A stretch of DNA of 64,000 nt, taken from the NCBI GenBank assembly GCA_017432615.1, contig JAFRIV010000024.1, positions 1 through 64,000 of the forward strand. The letters are read 5' to 3'. The translations under genes were made by a program, and so were the position numbers. The stretch comes from Oscillospiraceae bacterium (GTDB taxonomy: Bacteria > Bacillota > Clostridia > Oscillospirales > Oscillospiraceae). Of this stretch, positions 2,946 through 11,650 are shown in pieces. Each line of letters begins with the position of its first letter. Position 1 is the stretch's first letter. The notes under the pieces are model-generated. The model had not been told where the DNA came from. It searched no databases and saw only the letters and a list, made by a program, of their open reading frames with translations.

Positions 2946-2992
2946 CAGATATTTTATATCCAATCATCATAGTGCATAGAAAGGGAATGCAC

Positions 2993-3334
2993 ATGATAGA
3001 GACATTAGGAAGCCGTTTGAAACAGCTGAGATCGAGCCGTGGTCTCAGGCAAGATCAGTTGGGATCCCTAGTCGGATTGAACAAGACCGCAATCCACTAC
3101 TATGAAAATGATATGCGCCAACCATCTTATGAGACCTTAGTGCGTCTGGCATCCATATTCAACGTAACCACAGACTTCCTTCTCGGCTGTGAAAAGCGAA
3201 GCGTTATAGATGTTTCCGGTCTTACAACAAGTGAAATGAATATTGTCCGCTCCCTCGTTGACAGCATGACAGAGAAAAACATGCGTCTTGAGGGACGAAT
3301 ATTCATGACAGGCAGGAACAAAGATGATGATTAA
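2993..3334 (+). CDS. XRE-family (Cro/CI) transcriptional repressor
   Basis: 113 residues from the ATG at 2993, which has AAAGGG 7 nt upstream; GTG 2972 and ATG 2987 are in frame but less well placed. The N-terminal ~62 residues are a classic HTH_3 domain (RLKQLRSSRGLRQDQLG, then LVGLNKTAIHYYENDMRQP). The C-terminal ~45 residues are helical and polar, probably for dimerisation. There is no LexA-like peptidase domain, so induction by RecA-driven autocleavage is unlikely. It leads the recombination operon and overlaps the ATPase gene by 11 nt, so it probably controls this module. Confidence 0.85.
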   Translation: MIETLGSRLKQLRSSRGLRQDQLGSLVGLNKTAIHYYENDMRQPSYETLVRLASIFNVTTDFLLGCEKRSVIDVSGLTTSEMNIVRSLVDSMTEKNMRLEGRIFMTGRNKDDD

Positions 3335-4328
3335 AGTGGACACTCGCCCATATGAATATTACTCAACTGTTATGGAAAAGCGCGTTGAATGGCTGTGGTA
3401 TCCGTTCATTCCTTACGGGAAGCTAACGCTTTTGCAAGGAGATCCGGGAGAAGGCAAATCAACATTCATCGTCCATGTCGCCGCTGCGCTGACTACTGGA
3501 GGCATTCTTCCAAACGGGGTTGAGGTCAACGAGCCTGTTACCGTTATCTATCAGTGCGCTGAAGATAGTATTGAGGATACAATCAAACCTCGCTTGATAG
3601 AGGCGGGAGCTGATTGCGGCAAAGTCGCTTTCATCGTAGATGGAGATCAAACCCTGTCAGTCGATGACGAGCGCATTGAGCGAAGTATTCAGGAGACCGG
3701 CGCAAGGCTTTTCGTGCTTGATCCGCTTCAGGCATATATCAAGCAGGATGGCGATTTGCAGAGCGCCACCCGAATGAGAAGTCTGATGCGGCGGCTTTCC
3801 TCCGTAGCTGAGAGAAACCAGTGTGCTATCGTTCTGATTGGTCATCTGAACAAAGCATCTGGCGGCAAATCACTATATCGAGGCCTTGGAAGCATAGATA
3901 TCGCTGCTATAGCAAGAAGCGTTCTAATGATAACACGGGACTTGGAACACCCTGAGATTCGTTACATGTATCCCATTAAATCCAGCCTAGCCCCTGAAAG
4001 CTACGGGATCAGCTTCATACTCGATCCCGATACTGGCTTTCACTGGATCGGCAAGTGTCTGTTCCGTGGTGAAGAAAACTCTACCGGTATAACAACAAAT
4101 ACATCGAAGAAGGATCGGGCAAAAGAACTTCTTCGCCTTATGCTGTCAGCAGAAGATGTGAAAAGCACCGATGCTTATTCCCGACTCGTTTGGCTGGGGA
4201 TTTCTGAGCGTACTATACGAACCGCTCAAAAAGAGCTTGGCATTGAAGCATACAGGAAAAGCAACGTCTGGTACTTACGGCTTGCTTCACCACTTCAACC
4301 ATCCAGTGAGGAAGATGACGATGGATAA
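3324..4328 (+). CDS. AAA ATPase, RepA/DnaB-like (AAA_25) element helicase-type protein
   Basis: 334 residues. Walker A GDPGEGKST is at residues 39-47, and Walker B ends at Asp133 (ARLFVLDPLQAY). A sensor-like GHLNKASGGKSLYRGLGSID loop follows near 170-190. This is the RecA-fold, RepA-type hexameric helicase family found on integrative elements, where it is thought to act in element replication or DNA unwinding. Residues ~255-320 look like a helix-turn-helix tail (GISERTIRTAQKELGI). The start ATGATG overlaps the XRE stop, and the stop overlaps the next ATG by 8 nt, which indicates tight translational coupling. Confidence 0.85.
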   Translation: MMIKVDTRPYEYYSTVMEKRVEWLWYPFIPYGKLTLLQGDPGEGKSTFIVHVAAALTTGGILPNGVEVNEPVTVIYQCAEDSIEDTIKPRLIEAGADCGKVAFIVDGDQTLSVDDERIERSIQETGARLFVLDPLQAYIKQDGDLQSATRMRSLMRRLSSVAERNQCAIVLIGHLNKASGGKSLYRGLGSIDIAAIARSVLMITRDLEHPEIRYMYPIKSSLAPESYGISFILDPDTGFHWIGKCLFRGEENSTGITTNTSKKDRAKELLRLMLSAEDVKSTDAYSRLVWLGISERTIRTAQKELGIEAYRKSNVWYLRLASPLQPSSEEDDDG

Positions 4329-4809
4329 ACCTTATCTTGTGGGCGGATATGTGAAGCTGGCAAAACTATGGGAACGGCACCAGTTTCAGGCTTTCAGGTA
4401 TCATAACGACTATTATCAGAAGAAATATGCTGATTCTACAGATTCTGAGCTTATAGGCGTTTACATAGACATTACAGGCAACAAACAGACATATAAGCGT
4501 ACTCACATGGTTAGGCTCCTTCGAGACTGTCTGCTCGGCAAAGTCAATTGCATTTCCACGCAGACTAAAGCTTATCTTGCCGCAAATACAGAGGAACTAT
4601 GCTTCCTTCTGTATTTCTTGTTCCACCTACCTGTCCGCATTGATATCGTTAGCGAGGATGATCCTTTGCAAATCGACACTATACGAAATCCGGATATGCA
4701 GCGTGAAGCATTAGCAAAAATGGCTGATGATTATGTCGCACTGAACATGCCAGCCTATAGCGAATGGGAAAACAAGCTGCGGGAGGCAATGAATAAGCTC
4801 GTCTCGTAA
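4321..4809 (+). CDS. Serine-recombinase-fold protein lacking catalytic residues
   Basis: 162 residues from the ATG at 4321 (GAGG 9 nt upstream; ATG 4315 is an alternative). Residues ~43-112 align by eye with the second half of a resolvase catalytic domain: GVYIDITGNKQTYKR corresponds to the usual VYxDEGxSGTxxxR segment, LLRDCLLGKVNCISTQT to the LLxDAxxGKIDxVLxxS strand, and VRIDIVSEDD to VxFExE. The nucleophile Ser segment (ARVST) is absent, and the SRFARN Arg cluster is replaced by TKAYLAAN. It cannot cut DNA by the known mechanism. Lying between the ATPase and the large recombinase, it may be an architectural partner of the latter. This reading is mine and needs structure-based comparison. 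Confidence 0.6.
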   Translation: MDKPYLVGGYVKLAKLWERHQFQAFRYHNDYYQKKYADSTDSELIGVYIDITGNKQTYKRTHMVRLLRDCLLGKVNCISTQTKAYLAANTEELCFLLYFLFHLPVRIDIVSEDDPLQIDTIRNPDMQREALAKMADDYVALNMPAYSEWENKLREAMNKLVS

Positions 4810-4837
4810 CCAATCATGAAGAAAGTGAGATCCTTTC

Positions 4838-6805
4838 ATGGATGAGATTAAGGAACCTATTACAGAGATCGGTGATGATCCTGCTGAAGCTGATGTTCAG
4901 GAGACTGCTCTTGTACCGGTAAAACAGGATTGGCAGCAACGCCACGATGACCGAGAGGCATATCGTGAGGAACTGAGAAGTCGTGTGCGCAAAGCCCAAC
5001 CAAACGCAGAGTATTTTCGCCCCGCAAAGCCTCAGCCGACGATCTCTGATGATGGTCATAAGAGAGTTGCTGCCTATGCTCGCGTCAGCACGAAGAGCAC
5101 AGAACAGACACTTTCTATTGAAAACCAGACCAAATTCTATACCAAGAAGATTGAAGACAACCCTAATTGGGAGATGGATGATATCTACGCAGACGAGGGC
5201 AAGTCAGGGACTTCGCTCCGTCATAGGGATGACTTCAAACGCATGATGGAGAATGCACAGCAAAAGAAGATGGATCTCATCCTCTGTGCCAGTGTATCGA
5301 GATTTGCCAGAAATATCTCTGACTGCTTGGAACAGGTTGCGCTATTGAAAACCATGAACCCGTCTCATCCCATCGGCGTATACTTCGAGACTGAGAACAT
5401 CTACACGCTCGACCCTAACAGCGACCAGAATTTGCATATCCACGCTCTACTCGCAGATTGGGAGTCTGGGAATAAAAGCCGTCGCATGATTCTGTCGTAT
5501 GATCAGAGAATACTTACCGGCCAGTATCCTGTATCTGATCTGCTCGGTTTTCGCCATACGAAAGACGGAGACCTGATCATTCAGCCAGAAGAGGCAAAAA
5601 CTGTTCGTTTCATGTTCATAGCTCGTATCAGCGGATATGGATTTGAAGAAATAGCTGATATCTTGACTGATAAGAAACGGCCTACGCTTAAGGGACGAAC
5701 GGAATGGAACCCCAACATGGTACGCAGTATCATGTCAAATGAGCGAACATGGGGAGATCTCGAAGCACGTAAAAGCATCGTCATTGACTACAAGAAAGGT
5801 ATTGTCGTAAAGAACAACGGGCAACGAGATTCTGCTTATGTTCCCGGCCATCATGAAGGCATTGTTACTCCCACGATAGCGTTGGCAGCTAAGATGGTCT
5901 CCGCAAGTAGCCGTGCGCTAAGAGGGAATATCCCTGTCATGCGCGTTATAGCAGAGGGAAATCTAAAAGGCTTCATCAATCTGTCTCCCGGTTGGGGCGG
6001 CTTCAGTGCAGAAATGCTTTCGGATGCCAGCCTAAGTGTGTATGACAGTGAAGAGCAACAGCAGCTTTATTACGACGCTGGTATCATTTCAGGGGATATT
6101 CATAGCAATGTTCTATCCATGACAATGACAGGCTATGAAGTACCTTTGGGGATCTTCTTTCTGCATCGAAACATGCCTTCGCTTACCATCACGGAAAAAG
6201 GCATTCGATTCAATAAGGCTTGCCATGATCGGCTCGATAACTGTGCTGATATTGATATCTTTTATCATCCTCATCTCCAGTCGATTATCATTGCAACCGC
6301 TCAGGAGAAGTCCGCAAACAAAGTCCGCTGGATTAGTGCGGACGGCAATCCTATGCAGCTTATTTCAGGAAAGAAGTTCTCTGAAGCTATATATGATCAT
6401 TTACGCTGGATACATCAGTATCAGTTTCGCTTTCGTGGAGTTTCCAAGGAACGAAACGGAACAAAGTTCATTGTATTCAGCTTGGATGAACCGCAGATCC
6501 TTGTCGGGAAACTGAAGCCGGATTCTGCTGAGGCCAATACTCGTGGCGCTATTCGCTTCATTCCATACAAAGATACAGGCGATAAAGCAGCGACCACTAA
6601 TAATGGCGTAGCGTATCCGATTGAGTGGGAAGGCAAGCATGGCGTTTCCTATTACATTCGGAGCAAGCGAGACGCCGCTATAAATCAGATAAGCAGCAAT
6701 GATCTTTACGCGCCGTGTCTGACAGTGCATGACCCGACATTAGAGGATTTGCCTACCCCTGAAGAGATTCAGGATGAGCTTGAATACCTATTAGCGTCAA
6801 TGTAA
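4838..6805 (+). CDS. Large serine recombinase (element integrase) with novel C-terminal domain
   Basis: 655 residues. A charged ~75-residue N-terminal extension precedes the resolvase domain (residues ~76-225), with the nucleophile Ser84 in YARVSTKS and the SRFARNISD arginine region. A recombinase domain follows at ~235-345 (GLGF-type segment, then WNPNMVRSIMSNERTWGD). The usual Cys-rich zinc ribbon and long coiled coil of LSRs are not evident. Instead, residues ~445-555 carry a domain that also appears in the two downstream small proteins. It is expected to integrate and excise the element by cutting at short att sites with a 2-bp overlap. It is the fourth gene of the XRE-led operon. Confidence 0.9.
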   Translation: MDEIKEPITEIGDDPAEADVQETALVPVKQDWQQRHDDREAYREELRSRVRKAQPNAEYFRPAKPQPTISDDGHKRVAAYARVSTKSTEQTLSIENQTKFYTKKIEDNPNWEMDDIYADEGKSGTSLRHRDDFKRMMENAQQKKMDLILCASVSRFARNISDCLEQVALLKTMNPSHPIGVYFETENIYTLDPNSDQNLHIHALLADWESGNKSRRMILSYDQRILTGQYPVSDLLGFRHTKDGDLIIQPEEAKTVRFMFIARISGYGFEEIADILTDKKRPTLKGRTEWNPNMVRSIMSNERTWGDLEARKSIVIDYKKGIVVKNNGQRDSAYVPGHHEGIVTPTIALAAKMVSASSRALRGNIPVMRVIAEGNLKGFINLSPGWGGFSAEMLSDASLSVYDSEEQQQLYYDAGIISGDIHSNVLSMTMTGYEVPLGIFFLHRNMPSLTITEKGIRFNKACHDRLDNCADIDIFYHPHLQSIIIATAQEKSANKVRWISADGNPMQLISGKKFSEAIYDHLRWIHQYQFRFRGVSKERNGTKFIVFSLDEPQILVGKLKPDSAEANTRGAIRFIPYKDTGDKAATTNNGVAYPIEWEGKHGVSYYIRSKRDAAINQISSNDLYAPCLTVHDPTLEDLPTPEEIQDELEYLLASM

Positions 6806-6815
6806 GGAGAGCGTT

Positions 6816-7568
6816 ATGGATACTACTACACCTTCCACACCATCTGAAGAGAAGAAGCAGCCCTTCATTTCCCCTCGTGAGGCAGAACTGATTCAGGAAC
6901 TTGCCAAACTTCGTAGAGAGCAAAAACAAGAGTTGGAGTATGAGACCTTTGAAGGCTATCAGCTTCCTCCTCCAACGCAATTCTCCATGCTGAAGAAGCC
7001 TTTTGTGTCCATAAAATACGGCCAGATGAACTTCAACATGGCTTGTATCAGACTTTTTGAAGGACTGCCCCATATTCTAACTCCGATACATCCCGGAAAA
7101 AAGCGGCTCACCATTATACCCCTAGCGGAAGAAGAAAGTGCATCCGTGGATTGGGCAAGGCAAAAAGATGGCATTTGGATCAACCGAGGAATAACAACGG
7201 TCGAAGTTACAGACAGCATATTTCGTATGATGGGGTGGAATCAGGAGTGTCGATACAAAGCTCTTGGTAGAGTGGCTGATTCTGAGCGTGGACTCGTACT
7301 TATCTTCGACTTGGAAGAAGCCATTATGTTCACGCCTGATATGCATGAATATGTTGATCCTGCAACCGGTGAAATAAGGCATCGGAAAATCAAATACTAC
7401 CCTGATACCTATAAAGACTGCATCGGCAAGTCTTACAACGATTATGTGGCTTCACGTCAGCTAAGCCTTTTTGAAGAATTTGCCGGTTATCAAGGGGATT
7501 ACTCTTCTGGAATGCAACCGACATCTGAAGAAGGGCAGCCTGAAATAGGAGCAGATTATGAATCCTGA
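6816..7568 (+). CDS. LSR-accessory protein sharing the recombinase C-terminal domain (1)
   Basis: 250 residues, start ATG with AAGGAGAG upstream and only 10 nt after the recombinase. Residues 20-45 are helical and charged (REAELIQELAKLRREQ), possibly a coiled coil. Residues 61-172 (KPFVSIKYG, then KKRLTIIPLAEEES, VTDSIFRMMGW, LVLIFDLEEAIMF) follow the same pattern as LSR residues 445-555 and as the whole next protein. A basic-acidic tail follows. No named family is recognised. Position and shared domain suggest a factor that contacts the recombinase or the att site, such as a directionality or synapsis factor; this is inference. Confidence 0.65.
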   Translation: MDTTTPSTPSEEKKQPFISPREAELIQELAKLRREQKQELEYETFEGYQLPPPTQFSMLKKPFVSIKYGQMNFNMACIRLFEGLPHILTPIHPGKKRLTIIPLAEEESASVDWARQKDGIWINRGITTVEVTDSIFRMMGWNQECRYKALGRVADSERGLVLIFDLEEAIMFTPDMHEYVDPATGEIRHRKIKYYPDTYKDCIGKSYNDYVASRQLSLFEEFAGYQGDYSSGMQPTSEEGQPEIGADYES

Positions 7569-7908
7569 ACCCAAAAAGCTTTCCATCTCAGTTATGGGAG
7601 CAGAACACGGAATACTTGTCGGAAGAAAGATAGTCGAGGCTCTTGGCTATCCAGCGTATATATGCATTCTGAAAAGCGAGGATAAGCAGTCAATAGCTAT
7701 CACTCCATGCTCTCGAAAACATGTTCTCTCGTTCAAGGTTCCAGATAATTATGCGGAACAACGAAATGCCAAGTTCCGGATCTATAGTCATGCTTTCATT
7801 GAGGAGCTTTTAATCGCAAACGATTTGGAGCCAGCAAAGACACACCGGGTTATAGGAGAGTACTCGGAGGAGCATAATGCGGCTATCTTTCCGCTAAAGG
7901 TACTGTAG
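7558..7908 (+). CDS. LSR-accessory protein sharing the recombinase C-terminal domain (2)
   Basis: 116 residues consisting almost only of the shared domain: KLSISVMGAEHGILVGRKIV, then QSIAITPCSRKH, IYSHAFIEELLIANDL and NAAIFPLKVL. The start ATG overlaps the previous gene by 11 nt and follows GGAGCAGATT. It is a small soluble alpha/beta protein with no membrane segment and is the last gene before a terminator. Single-domain size and linkage to an LSR fit a recombination directionality factor, but RDFs have no common sequence, so this is a hypothesis. Confidence 0.6.
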   Translation: MNPEPKKLSISVMGAEHGILVGRKIVEALGYPAYICILKSEDKQSIAITPCSRKHVLSFKVPDNYAEQRNAKFRIYSHAFIEELLIANDLEPAKTHRVIGEYSEEHNAAIFPLKVL

Positions 7909-7912
7909 AAAG

Positions 7913-7970
7913 CAAAAAAAGAAGGTGTTCACTTCGACCCTGCTTAGGGAAGAAATGAACGCCTTTTCTG
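7913..7970. terminator. Bidirectional terminator of the recombinase operon
   Basis: Stem 7922-7933/7954-7965 (AAGGTGTTCACT with AATGAACGCCTT, including G-U pairs) contains an inner CCC...GGG hairpin. It is followed by TTTTCTG on the plus strand and by seven Ts on the minus strand (7914-7920). It is placed between convergent genes. It resembles the 500-550 terminator. Confidence 0.75.
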
Positions 7971-8330: not shown

Positions 8331-8385
8331 ATAGGACTAAGCCGTGAAAGCCTTGATTTATAAGGCTTTTCTGGTTTAGTCCTAT
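8331..8385. terminator. Nested inverted repeat at the element edge
   Basis: A perfect 10-bp outer stem (8331-8340/8376-8385, ATAGGACTAA) encloses an 8-bp inner stem (8347-8354/8362-8369, AAAGCCTT). Ts follow on the minus strand (8326-8330 region). It could terminate read-through from the interrupted dehydrogenase gene and protect the element from host transcription. Confidence 0.6.
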
Positions 8386-8762
8386 TATCTCATACTCATC
8401 TTTAAGAACTTATCAAGCTTTAAAATGTTTTTGTACCAGCAGAGAATCAACGCCATGACATGTTCCGCTACGGCGTTGGCATTTACACCAGCTGCATTAC
8501 ATACCTGGACACCATGCTTTGTACATGCGCGTAAGTCAACATTGTCATATCCCGCGCCTGTCTGTACCAACTTCAGCTTAGGTGCTTTCTGCAGGATTTC
8601 GTCGCCGATCAGGATATGTTCGGGAATAATTACCTCAGCGTCTGGTAATTCCTGTTCAACCTCTTCCGGCAAAACAATTCTGACATCCCAGGTACACGGA
8701 AAACTCCCGCGGATTCTATCTTTTGCTGTCTCCGGGAAAAAGCCTATGATGACGACCTTCAT
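8385..8762 (-). pseudogene. D-2-hydroxyacid dehydrogenase, 5' fragment cut by the element
   Basis: About 125 residues from the ATG at 8762. The sequence matches the N-terminal substrate-binding part of D-2-hydroxyacid / phosphoglycerate dehydrogenases (LVQTGAGYDNVDLRACTKHG, then VQVCNAAGVNANAVAEHVMA). Similarity runs to about LDKFLK and then stops in MSMR and a stop codon, before the NAD-binding Rossmann motif. The full family length is ~310-330 residues, so ~190 residues are missing. The break falls within ~15 bp of the element edge, so it is best read as the integration target with its 3' half left beyond the far end of the element. Confidence 0.8.
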
Positions 8763-8828
8763 TGAACACCTTCTTCCTGCTAATCCCACCTTGGGTTTTC
8801 GTCAGCTAACTCGGCTGCTTCTCGCAGC

Positions 8829-8995
8829 AGCAAACAAACAATTTTTGTACCACTGGAATGAAATGCCGCAATTTGCCGTGCAAAAAAGTTGTTAATACTC
8901 AGTGACTTAAGTCACGGAAAAAGCAAAATACGGCAAGTCAATGCCGTCAATGGTAGTCAAATGGTAGTAAAAATCGAGGGTTCTTACTACCGTCA
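8829..8995. repeat. Left copy of a ~170-bp direct repeat flanking the arsM island
   Basis: This copy aligns with 11443-11617, nearly identical over 8845-8915. It contains the palindrome GTGACTTAAGTCAC, several TGCCGT/ACGGCA heptamers in both orientations and a doubled AATGGTAGT motif that also forms a hairpin with a downstream ACTACC. Compared with the right copy it lacks a ~9-bp segment near 8937. It ends at the stop codon of the radical SAM gene. Confidence 0.85.
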
Positions 8996-8997
8996 CC

Positions 8998-10203
8998 TTA
9001 AGATTGACTGCACCAGCGCTTTATATCAGCGTCAATACATACGTTCAAGCCGGAGCCTCCGGGCGGCTGAAGTTGATACTTCTCATACAGTCCGGCAAGC
9101 ATTTCCTTTGTTCGCCGGTAGTAGTCAAGCTCAGGCGGTTTCATCGAACCTCTGACAGGTTTCCCAAACGGCATCCATACCGATGCTGTGGGAATAATGC
9201 CCCTCTCCGCAAGATAAGTCGCGCCTTGAGTCAAACTTTCGATCGGCTCCAGTCCGATGATGAAGTTTGAAAAAGCCTTGCCCGATCCGTATTTTTCAGC
9301 AATGTAAGTCAGCGCCTGCAGATGGCGCTCTCTTCCCGTGAAACGGTGTTTCCCCGGCATGATTTCAGAGGCAAGAGTCTCATCCCAGACTTCGATGCTG
9401 CAGGCAATTCTGTCCGCACCGAGAGCAAAATAGCGATCCAAAACATCCGTCTGTTTCGGCGGTGTGATGAACAGGAGAATCTCACCGTCTTTCCGACGCA
9501 TCAGCGGCGAATTCTGCAAGGCGTCCAGATAAGAAGTGATGTGCTTTTCCTCCACTGACGCATCAAACGTAGAACCGCCGGTGATTTCCATGCTCGTAAC
9601 ATGACAATTTGCAGCTGCGTAATCCGATACCTCTCTCACGTCCTGGGGGCTTGGAATAAAGGGCATGGGCTTCTTTCGCTTTGCCAGCGACTCAAACTGC
9701 CCCCCTGAGAAGCAATATTGGCAGGAGTAACCAGCCTGCGCGTATTCACACGGCCAGAGGCATTGGAACGCGACCCACTCTCTGCCCTGCAAAACGGCGT
9801 TTCCCGCATAGGGCATACCGGAAGATGTCTTTTGAAGATAAAAGTCCGTTCCGGGAAGAAAACGGATGGGTGTAACAGGTTCCTTCTGATACAGAAGAAC
9901 CGGTTGATCCCCGTCCAGAACGACCTGAAAATCCGTCGTCATGTCGTTCATATATTTGAGGAGCTTGAGATTATCCCATGAAAACATGGAGGACAGGGTG
10001 GAGAGATGAAAGCCCAGATCTGTGGCCATGCAGATCGTGTCGTCCGGCAGCAGCAGGCAGTTGCACGTCAGAGCGTTGGGATAAATGCGATACGATTTCC
10101 CAAGCCGGCGGTAAACATCCTTGTCGACTTTCAGACCGCGACTGACCAGGAGACTCTTCAATTCAACGCTGTCAATGGTCTGTTTGTTCCAGGTATAGTT
10201 CAA
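8998..10203 (-). CDS. Radical SAM enzyme with extended Cys motif, partner of arsM
   Basis: About 401 residues. The [4Fe-4S] region is C148-x3-C152-x8-C161-x2-C164-F, not the usual C-x3-C-x2-C. A long spacing of this type is known in Elp3-like enzymes. A GGS-like segment (MEITGGSTF) follows about 45 residues later, and the C-terminal half shows barrel-like motifs (LFITPPKQTDVLDRYFALGADRI). The N-terminal ~110 residues look like a separate domain. There is no ATG start; TTG at 10201-10203 has AAGGGGG 9 nt upstream, and TTG 10209 is the alternative. It overlaps arsM, so the two are translationally coupled. A role in modifying methylated arsenic is inferred from this pairing only. Confidence 0.75.
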   Translation of the reverse strand: MNYTWNKQTIDSVELKSLLVSRGLKVDKDVYRRLGKSYRIYPNALTCNCLLLPDDTICMATDLGFHLSTLSSMFSWDNLKLLKYMNDMTTDFQVVLDGDQPVLLYQKEPVTPIRFLPGTDFYLQKTSSGMPYAGNAVLQGREWVAFQCLWPCEYAQAGYSCQYCFSGGQFESLAKRKKPMPFIPSPQDVREVSDYAAANCHVTSMEITGGSTFDASVEEKHITSYLDALQNSPLMRRKDGEILLFITPPKQTDVLDRYFALGADRIACSIEVWDETLASEIMPGKHRFTGRERHLQALTYIAEKYGSGKAFSNFIIGLEPIESLTQGATYLAERGIIPTASVWMPFGKPVRGSMKPPELDYYRRTKEMLAGLYEKYQLQPPGGSGLNVCIDADIKRWCSQS

Positions 10204-11361: not shown

Positions 11362-11458
11362 TACATAACCAGACAGCAAAGAAACATTTTCCTGTTCATC
11401 TCTATCAGCTTTTTGCCAAGTGAACTCTGCACATACCCGGATAGCAAACAAACATTTT
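11362..11458. repeat. 31-bp direct repeat upstream of arsM
   Basis: TG(T/C)ACATA(A/C)CC(A/G)GA(C/T)AGCAAA followed by (G/C)AAACATTTT occurs at 11362-11392 and again at 11428-11458; the second copy runs into the right 170-bp repeat. It could be operator sites for arsM or a duplication left by recombination. Nothing else is evident in 11244-11442. Confidence 0.5.
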
Positions 11459-11617
11459 TTGTATCATTGGAATGAAATGCCGCAATTTGCCGTGCAAAAA
11501 AGTTGTTAATACTCAGTGACTTAAGTCACTGAAAACGCAAAATACGGCAAAATGCGTCAAGTCAATGCTGTCAATGGTAGTAAAATGGTAGTAAAACTGT
11601 GGGGTTTTTACTATCGT
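11443..11617. repeat. Right copy of the ~170-bp direct repeat
   Basis: Same orientation as the copy at 8829-8995. The palindrome is longer here (CAGTGACTTAAGTCACTG), and AATGGTAGTAAAATGGTAGT is an exact doubled unit. The two copies enclose arsM and the radical SAM gene. Confidence 0.85.
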
Positions 11618-11650
11618 CGGGTGAATGGGATGAAGTTAAATAAATTGGAT

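Follow-up and report, generated by a model that had tools for sequence, protein, structure and literature searches.

Serine integrases are usually viewed as enzymes of a single protein, and their choice of recombination direction is still being worked out. Integrases of the phiC31 and Bxb1 type carry a zinc ribbon and a coiled coil, and their recombination directionality factor (RDF) is unrelated to the integrase. The CcrA/CcrB proteins of SCCmec are paired serine recombinases whose genes adjoin a replication-type ATPase gene; to our knowledge, no loose C-terminal domain genes accompany them. We analyzed the first 64,000 nucleotides of contig JAFRIV010000024.1 from an Oscillospiraceae bacterium of the gut (assembly GCA_017432615.1), referred to here as the window. 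It holds a gene cassette in which a large serine recombinase (LSR) is followed by P5 and P6, two stand-alone copies of its own C-terminal domain (CTD), and preceded by P3, a stand-alone copy of the catalytic domain without the catalytic residues. We consider it rather probable that the LSR, P5, and P6 belong together as the subunits of a single system for site-specific serine recombination, which includes P3 in the subfamily of the window and is found in mobile elements of Clostridia and in related phages. A natural system that keeps the domains of an enzyme as separate, co-conserved proteins, together with a dead catalytic copy, would allow the role of each domain to be tested by adding or omitting one protein.

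Operon layout and the shared domain

The genes form a tight forward operon (2972-7908) with the following features.

2972..3334, forward strand: helix-turn-helix (HTH) regulator of the Cro/C1 type, 120 amino acids (aa) (Pfam HTH_31, E = 2.2e-12)
3324..4328, forward strand: AAA_25 P-loop ATPase, 334 aa (Pfam AAA_25, E = 4.7e-25), which we take to be RepA-like
4321..4809, forward strand: P3, stand-alone serine-recombinase catalytic domain without catalytic residues, 162 aa (P3-only profile against PDB 3g13; alignment)
4838..6805, forward strand: LSR, 655 aa (Pfam Resolvase N-terminal domain PF00239, E = 1.9e-23; Recombinase domain PF07508, E = 2.9e-12)
5066..5509, forward strand: catalytic domain of the LSR, aa 77-224, catalytic Ser and Arg kept (Pfam, alignment)
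5585..5887, forward strand: Recombinase domain of the LSR, aa 250-350 (Pfam)
6119..6691, forward strand: CTD of the LSR, aa 428-618, common to P5 and, in its core, P6 (hhalign)
6816..7568, forward strand: P5, stand-alone CTD copy with an extra N-terminal helix and a tail, 250 aa (hhalign, structure model)
7558..7908, forward strand: P6, minimal stand-alone CTD copy, 116 aa (hhalign)

The gene pairs HTH/ATPase, ATPase/P3, and P5/P6 overlap, the last by 11 nt, and 10 nt separate the end of the LSR gene from the start of P5. This arrangement of LSR, P5, and P6 is the one given by a first-pass annotation made from the sequence alone. The start of the locus was placed there at 4321, which is the start of P3, a gene left undescribed, and neither the AAA ATPase nor the split form presented below was mentioned. 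P3, with its lost catalytic residues, and the relatives with a split recombinase make the system more interesting than it was in that account.

The same annotation had proposed a domain common to the three proteins, spanning LSR residues ~445 to 555. Profile comparison with hhalign supported the common domain and showed its extent in the LSR to be longer, from residue 428 to 618. An LSR profile of 6 rows was aligned with a P5 profile of 7 rows at 99.8% (E = 3.6e-30), LSR residues 428-618 falling on P5 residues 43-223. Larger profiles related P5 to P6 (43 and 46 rows; 98.4%, E = 9e-15) and the LSR to P6 (42 and 46 rows; 96.6%, E = 6.1e-10), the LSR-P6 relationship being detectable through profiles only. 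Single sequences were also compared by blastp with 13 proteins of two Ca. Heliusvirales phages, a tiny database that makes the E values lenient. The window LSR matched the phage P5 (1.6e-15), the window P5 matched the phage LSR (3.3e-17), and the window P6 matched both the phage P6 (3.6e-7) and the phage P5 (3.2e-4). The structure model of P5 had block-mean predicted local distance difference test (pLDDT) values of 92 to 97 over residues 61-190. Judged from the profiles, CTD, P5, and P6 are homologous. Neither P5 nor P6 had a convincing Pfam family, and 43 P5 and 46 P6 members yielded zero PHROG matches at an E value of 0.001; the domain appears to be undescribed in these two libraries.

The LSR itself kept the active-site residues. 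In an alignment of 42 LSRs that carry the CTD (CTD-LSRs), the catalytic Ser was present in 41 rows, including that of the window, and the three Arg positions in all 42. The absence of a zinc ribbon, already remarked on at first pass, was borne out: the zinc beta ribbon PF13408 had no Pfam match in the window LSR, and no CxxC/CxxxxC pair occurred past residue 330 in 41 of the 42 CTD-LSR rows, whereas CxxC was found in 33 of 35 neighboring LSR open reading frames (ORFs) without a CTD. Because a zinc ribbon is also missing from 10 of 42 streptococcal serine integrases, according to the available text of PMC4701971, we classed the window enzyme as an LSR variant. In a tree of catalytic domains, the CTD-LSRs formed one clade (support, 99) and P3 one long, separate branch (support, 100).

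The relationship of P3 to serine recombinases was established with a P3-only profile, which matched PDB 3g13 at an E value of 4.5e-11. Pfam Resolvase was matched by 26 of 32 P3 members (best E value, 2.2e-6), the window P3 not among them. P3 has the homology to the Resolvase domain but not the catalytic serine: the motif Tyr-x-Arg-x-Ser of active enzymes is changed to Tyr-x-Lys-x-Ala, with Lys and Ala in 32/32 members. The later two Arg positions are also replaced, one by Tyr in all 32 and the other by Ala in 29 and Pro in 3. P3 lay directly upstream of the LSR in 39 of 41 testable CTD-LSR loci, L132 and L133 being without it; L111 begins at the LSR and is outside this count. No P3 was found upstream of the phage-type LSRs (L035, L036, L040, L081, L082, L085, L088, L132, and L133), and P3 therefore marks the window's subfamily. 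Its conservation under selection (see below) suggests that dead P3 is a structural or regulatory subunit. Two further proteins were seen in other loci. After P6 in L084 (3685-4098), a 137-aa protein had a weak match to a mixed P3/resolvase profile (E = 3.6e-6) and is possibly another dead catalytic domain, differently placed. Between two canonical LSRs in L089, a 305-aa ORF (3243-4160) resembled, by eye, an LSR without its catalytic domain and could be a further loose recombinase part.

Co-occurrence, age, and selection

Loci were collected from 46 sources: 34 from an LSR query of a genome collection, 9 and 2 from two P5 queries of viral contigs, and the window. A CTD-LSR was present in 42 of them (30 from the LSR query, 11 viral, and the window); of the remaining four loci, L117 and L119 end inside the LSR, and L121 and L122 hold other LSRs. 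P5 and P6 followed directly downstream in 42/42 CTD-LSR loci, 30/30 for those from the LSR query. The 11 viral loci contain P5 by construction, as it was the query, and there the LSR CTD and P6 are the independent observations. The number of independent cases is below 42, since L124/L125 and L110/L131 are identical where they overlap and L107/L108 are ~98% identical, and the counts describe the subfamily of window-type recombinases from which the LSR query was built. A relative of the ATPase was found in 32 of the 42 loci. Of the ten others, three (L097, L111, and L130) are truncated at the cassette, and a fourth, L094, extends 1.4 kb upstream. Downstream of P6, a gene resembling a phosphoesterase by eye was seen in 8/41 loci. 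One LSR, that of L040, was followed by three rather than two stand-alone copies of the domain (202, 156, and 117 aa; 8532-9950).

The first-pass annotation had named wide occurrence of P5 or P6 homologues without an LSR as the finding that would count against it. Such occurrence was not seen in the samples searched. In an LSR-independent survey of 291 genomes of the class, P5 profile matches occurred in 7 and P6 profile matches in 8; six genomes carried full LSR-P5-P6 sets, found by both profiles. The other matches were a weak P5 containing stops in G221, a P6 in G298 that lies where the contig ends, and, in G253, a broken P6 by itself. The window P6, used as a query on 99 genomes, matched 4, namely, the window's own, two with the cassette (G052 and G088), and G071, where a P6-like gene was seen with neither an LSR nor a P5 in the 12 kb taken. 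The exceptions are thus G071 and the broken G253, with G298 at its contig end. Among 50,697 phage records, 17 matched the phage P6; 16 of these were also among the 45 of 383 phage-LSR matches listed, and the 17th is a 4.9-kb contig.

In a tree of 87 domain copies, P6 (97) and CTD (92) each occupied one side of a branch, and P5 needed two changes. When three split-form proteins were added (90 copies), P5 (92/86) and CTD (90/78) were single groups and P6 was not, two split forms being placed at the P6 base and the third by other groups. The P5, P6, and CTD groups each contained phage and bacterial versions; therefore, the duplication preceded the parting of those versions. These trees point to an old three-way duplication of the domain; their details, which rest on ~116 columns, are weak. 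Ratios of nonsynonymous to synonymous substitution rates (dN/dS) in four close pairs were 0.06 to 0.15 for P3, 0.08 to 0.15 for P5, 0.03 to 0.19 for P6, and 0.10 to 0.11 for the LSR, with saturated values omitted and some pairs having few changes (8 for P3 of L104/L118). By these ratios, P3, P5, and P6 are under purifying selection, as is the LSR. The domain of the window LSR is only 11 to 25% identical to P5 or P6 proteins, as might be expected if P5 and P6 were decaying duplicates or resembled the CTD by chance. That explanation is contradicted by the profile scores, the purifying selection, and the conservation across genera, and we regard it as extremely improbable.

Split relatives and the possible role of the loose domains

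The Streptococcus phage phi1207.3 (formerly Tn1207.3) has three serine recombinases and integrates at a GA dinucleotide in comEC; in the available text of PMC4260502, a zinc ribbon is given for Orf56 and Orf57 and not for Orf2, and Orf3 is assigned no role. In a set of 18 sequences, on which all split-form E values were computed, Orf2 (370 aa) matched the LSR profile at 1.2e-103, and Orf3 (138 aa), the next gene, matched the profiles of P6 (6e-19) and of the LSR (1.4e-9). In these matches phi1207.3 is like the window. It differs in that Orf2 is without a CTD, which is present as a gene of its own, whereas the window LSR carries the CTD itself, and the parts are homologous only. No P5 or P3 gene adjoins Orf2/Orf3, the search having covered the adjoining genes and not the rest of the phage. 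A split arrangement like that of phi1207.3 was found in phi-SsuNJ5_rum and in two Ca. Heliusvirales phages, through an annotated gene in NatCom_42594 (recombinase, 399 aa; separate protein, 145 aa) and an unannotated open frame in NatCom_11393. Since the CTD occurs as a separate protein in these relatives, they provide the best support for its action in trans.

These observations are consistent with a mechanism in which the LSR would supply catalysis and the CTD would take the place of the zinc ribbon, serving as a module for DNA binding or assembly that is delivered either in cis, within the LSR, or in trans, as P5 and P6. Beside split relatives such as phi1207.3 Orf2/Orf3, the trans copy would be the sole source of the module, being the only CTD seen. 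P3 would most likely pair with the catalytic domains of the LSR. We infer that the proteins assemble physically, that the CTD may bind DNA, and that the extra subunits could make the complex asymmetric or direction controlled.

Small proteins adjoining an LSR are classic RDF candidates, and P5 or P6 might instead bind the CTDs of the LSR and switch it from integration to excision. Homology to the LSR's own domain would give an obvious binding route, and two loose copies permit separate roles. However, the loose copy is the only CTD seen beside the split recombinases, which suggests that it serves the structure there and is not a switch, and we consider an RDF function a rather doubtful alternative. 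P5 and P6 could also be transcription or copy-control regulators that borrowed an LSR domain and act outside the recombination complex. Mobile-element operons are rich in regulators, an HTH gene is present in this one, and the lone P6-like gene of G071 would fit such a role; the invariant LSR-P5-P6 order and the replacement of the fused CTD by a P6-like protein in the split relatives argue against it, and we hold it to be unlikely.

A multiprotein recombinase is well supported because of the fixed-order co-occurrence, the old three-way duplication, the purifying selection, and the relatives with a separate CTD. The "multi-subunit integrase" proposed at first pass is therefore supported as a conserved multiprotein recombinase but not as the integrase of its element, since many loci also carry a second LSR or a tyrosine integrase. 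We regard a multi-subunit recombination system as likely; its job is conjectural, and so is the control of synapsis or direction by loose copies that was proposed at first pass. More tentatively, the system may be a split heteromeric recombinase in which the active LSR, dead P3, and three kinds of CTD (fused, P5, and P6) form an asymmetric synaptic complex, its direction set by the loose domains present, possibly with the neighboring ATPase. It might have grown from a phi1207.3-like two-gene ancestor that consisted of a catalytic half and a separate CTD.

The cassette in its element and among known systems

Another LSR ORF was present in at least 22 of the 42 CTD-LSR loci (near-copies counted; in L103 it is an unusual ORF of 869 aa). 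Relatives of the tyrosine integrase of MSJ-30, itself identified by eye, were present in at least 8/41; both counts are lower bounds set by the limited stretches taken per locus. The cassette therefore need not be the only integrase of its element. It might be an auxiliary module for dimer resolution, inversion, or a nested element, with the element or phage integrating by other enzymes. Besides these counts, a 15.7-kb stretch common to MSJ-30 and an S. variabile record contains both a tyrosine integrase and the cassette. MSJ-30 and MSJ-31 have 7.2 kb in common (~80% in the cassette region) with different tyrosine integrases adjoining; in some elements, therefore, the cassette and the other integrase can be separated. 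In Faecalibacterium G387 (C1 519000-546000; L141-L143), several cassette copies or remnants are clustered in one chromosome, which would also suit an auxiliary role. On the other side, the three recombinases of phi1207.3 are located at both ends of the integrated phage in the available description, as one integration module predicts, and in the window a disrupted host gene lies ~490 bp beyond the cassette. We regard the auxiliary role as a serious possibility, though one that we would not favor.

The broken gene lies just past the operon.

8385..8789, reverse strand: truncated 2-hydroxyacid dehydrogenase gene, named by eye (similarity to same-genus genes)

The dehydrogenase is intact (312 to 334 aa) in four genomes of the same genus, and its similarity to the window stops at 8397-8401. 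The break at ~8399, ~490 bp past P6, is a probable junction between element and chromosome. The other end of the element was not found. Two imperfect direct repeats, at 495-548 and 7909-7962 (constant offset, 7414), have in common the 14-mer GAAGAAATGAACGC, of which there is no further exact copy in the 2.4-Mb genome; they may be terminators or attachment-like sites. A repeat of ~170 bp at 8829-8994 and 11443-11618 has many partial relatives across the genus.

Among known systems, Ca. Heliusvirales gut phages such as PV036410 and PV036424 are like the window in having a CTD-LSR, P5, and P6 in the same order and unlike it in that no P3 or ATPase relative was found. In these phages, P6 is followed by two genes that are ParB-like by eye and then by two LSRs on the opposite strand; the clusters of the two genes behind P6 occur in 6/41 and 5/41 loci and are missing from the window. 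In the phage annotation, the LSR, P5, and P6 are hypothetical proteins. The terms "integrase," "recombinase," and "resolvase" are absent from the main text of PMC9226167.

Streptococcal integrative and conjugative elements with serine-integrase triplets also have several LSR genes per element. Their LSRs group by position, for which successive duplications are given as the explanation, but the triplets consist of whole serine integrases, and the available text of PMC4701971 describes neither loose domains nor a dead catalytic subunit. CcrB of SCCmec has weak N-terminal similarity to P3 and the LSR. A Ccr identity was rejected, with the LSR scoring 84 bits and P3 19.7 against a curated NCBIfam cutoff of 900. 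Integrases of the phiC31/Bxb1 type have the same catalytic and Recombinase domains as the window LSR; unlike them, the window LSR has no zinc ribbon, and its candidate partners are paralogues of the integrase.
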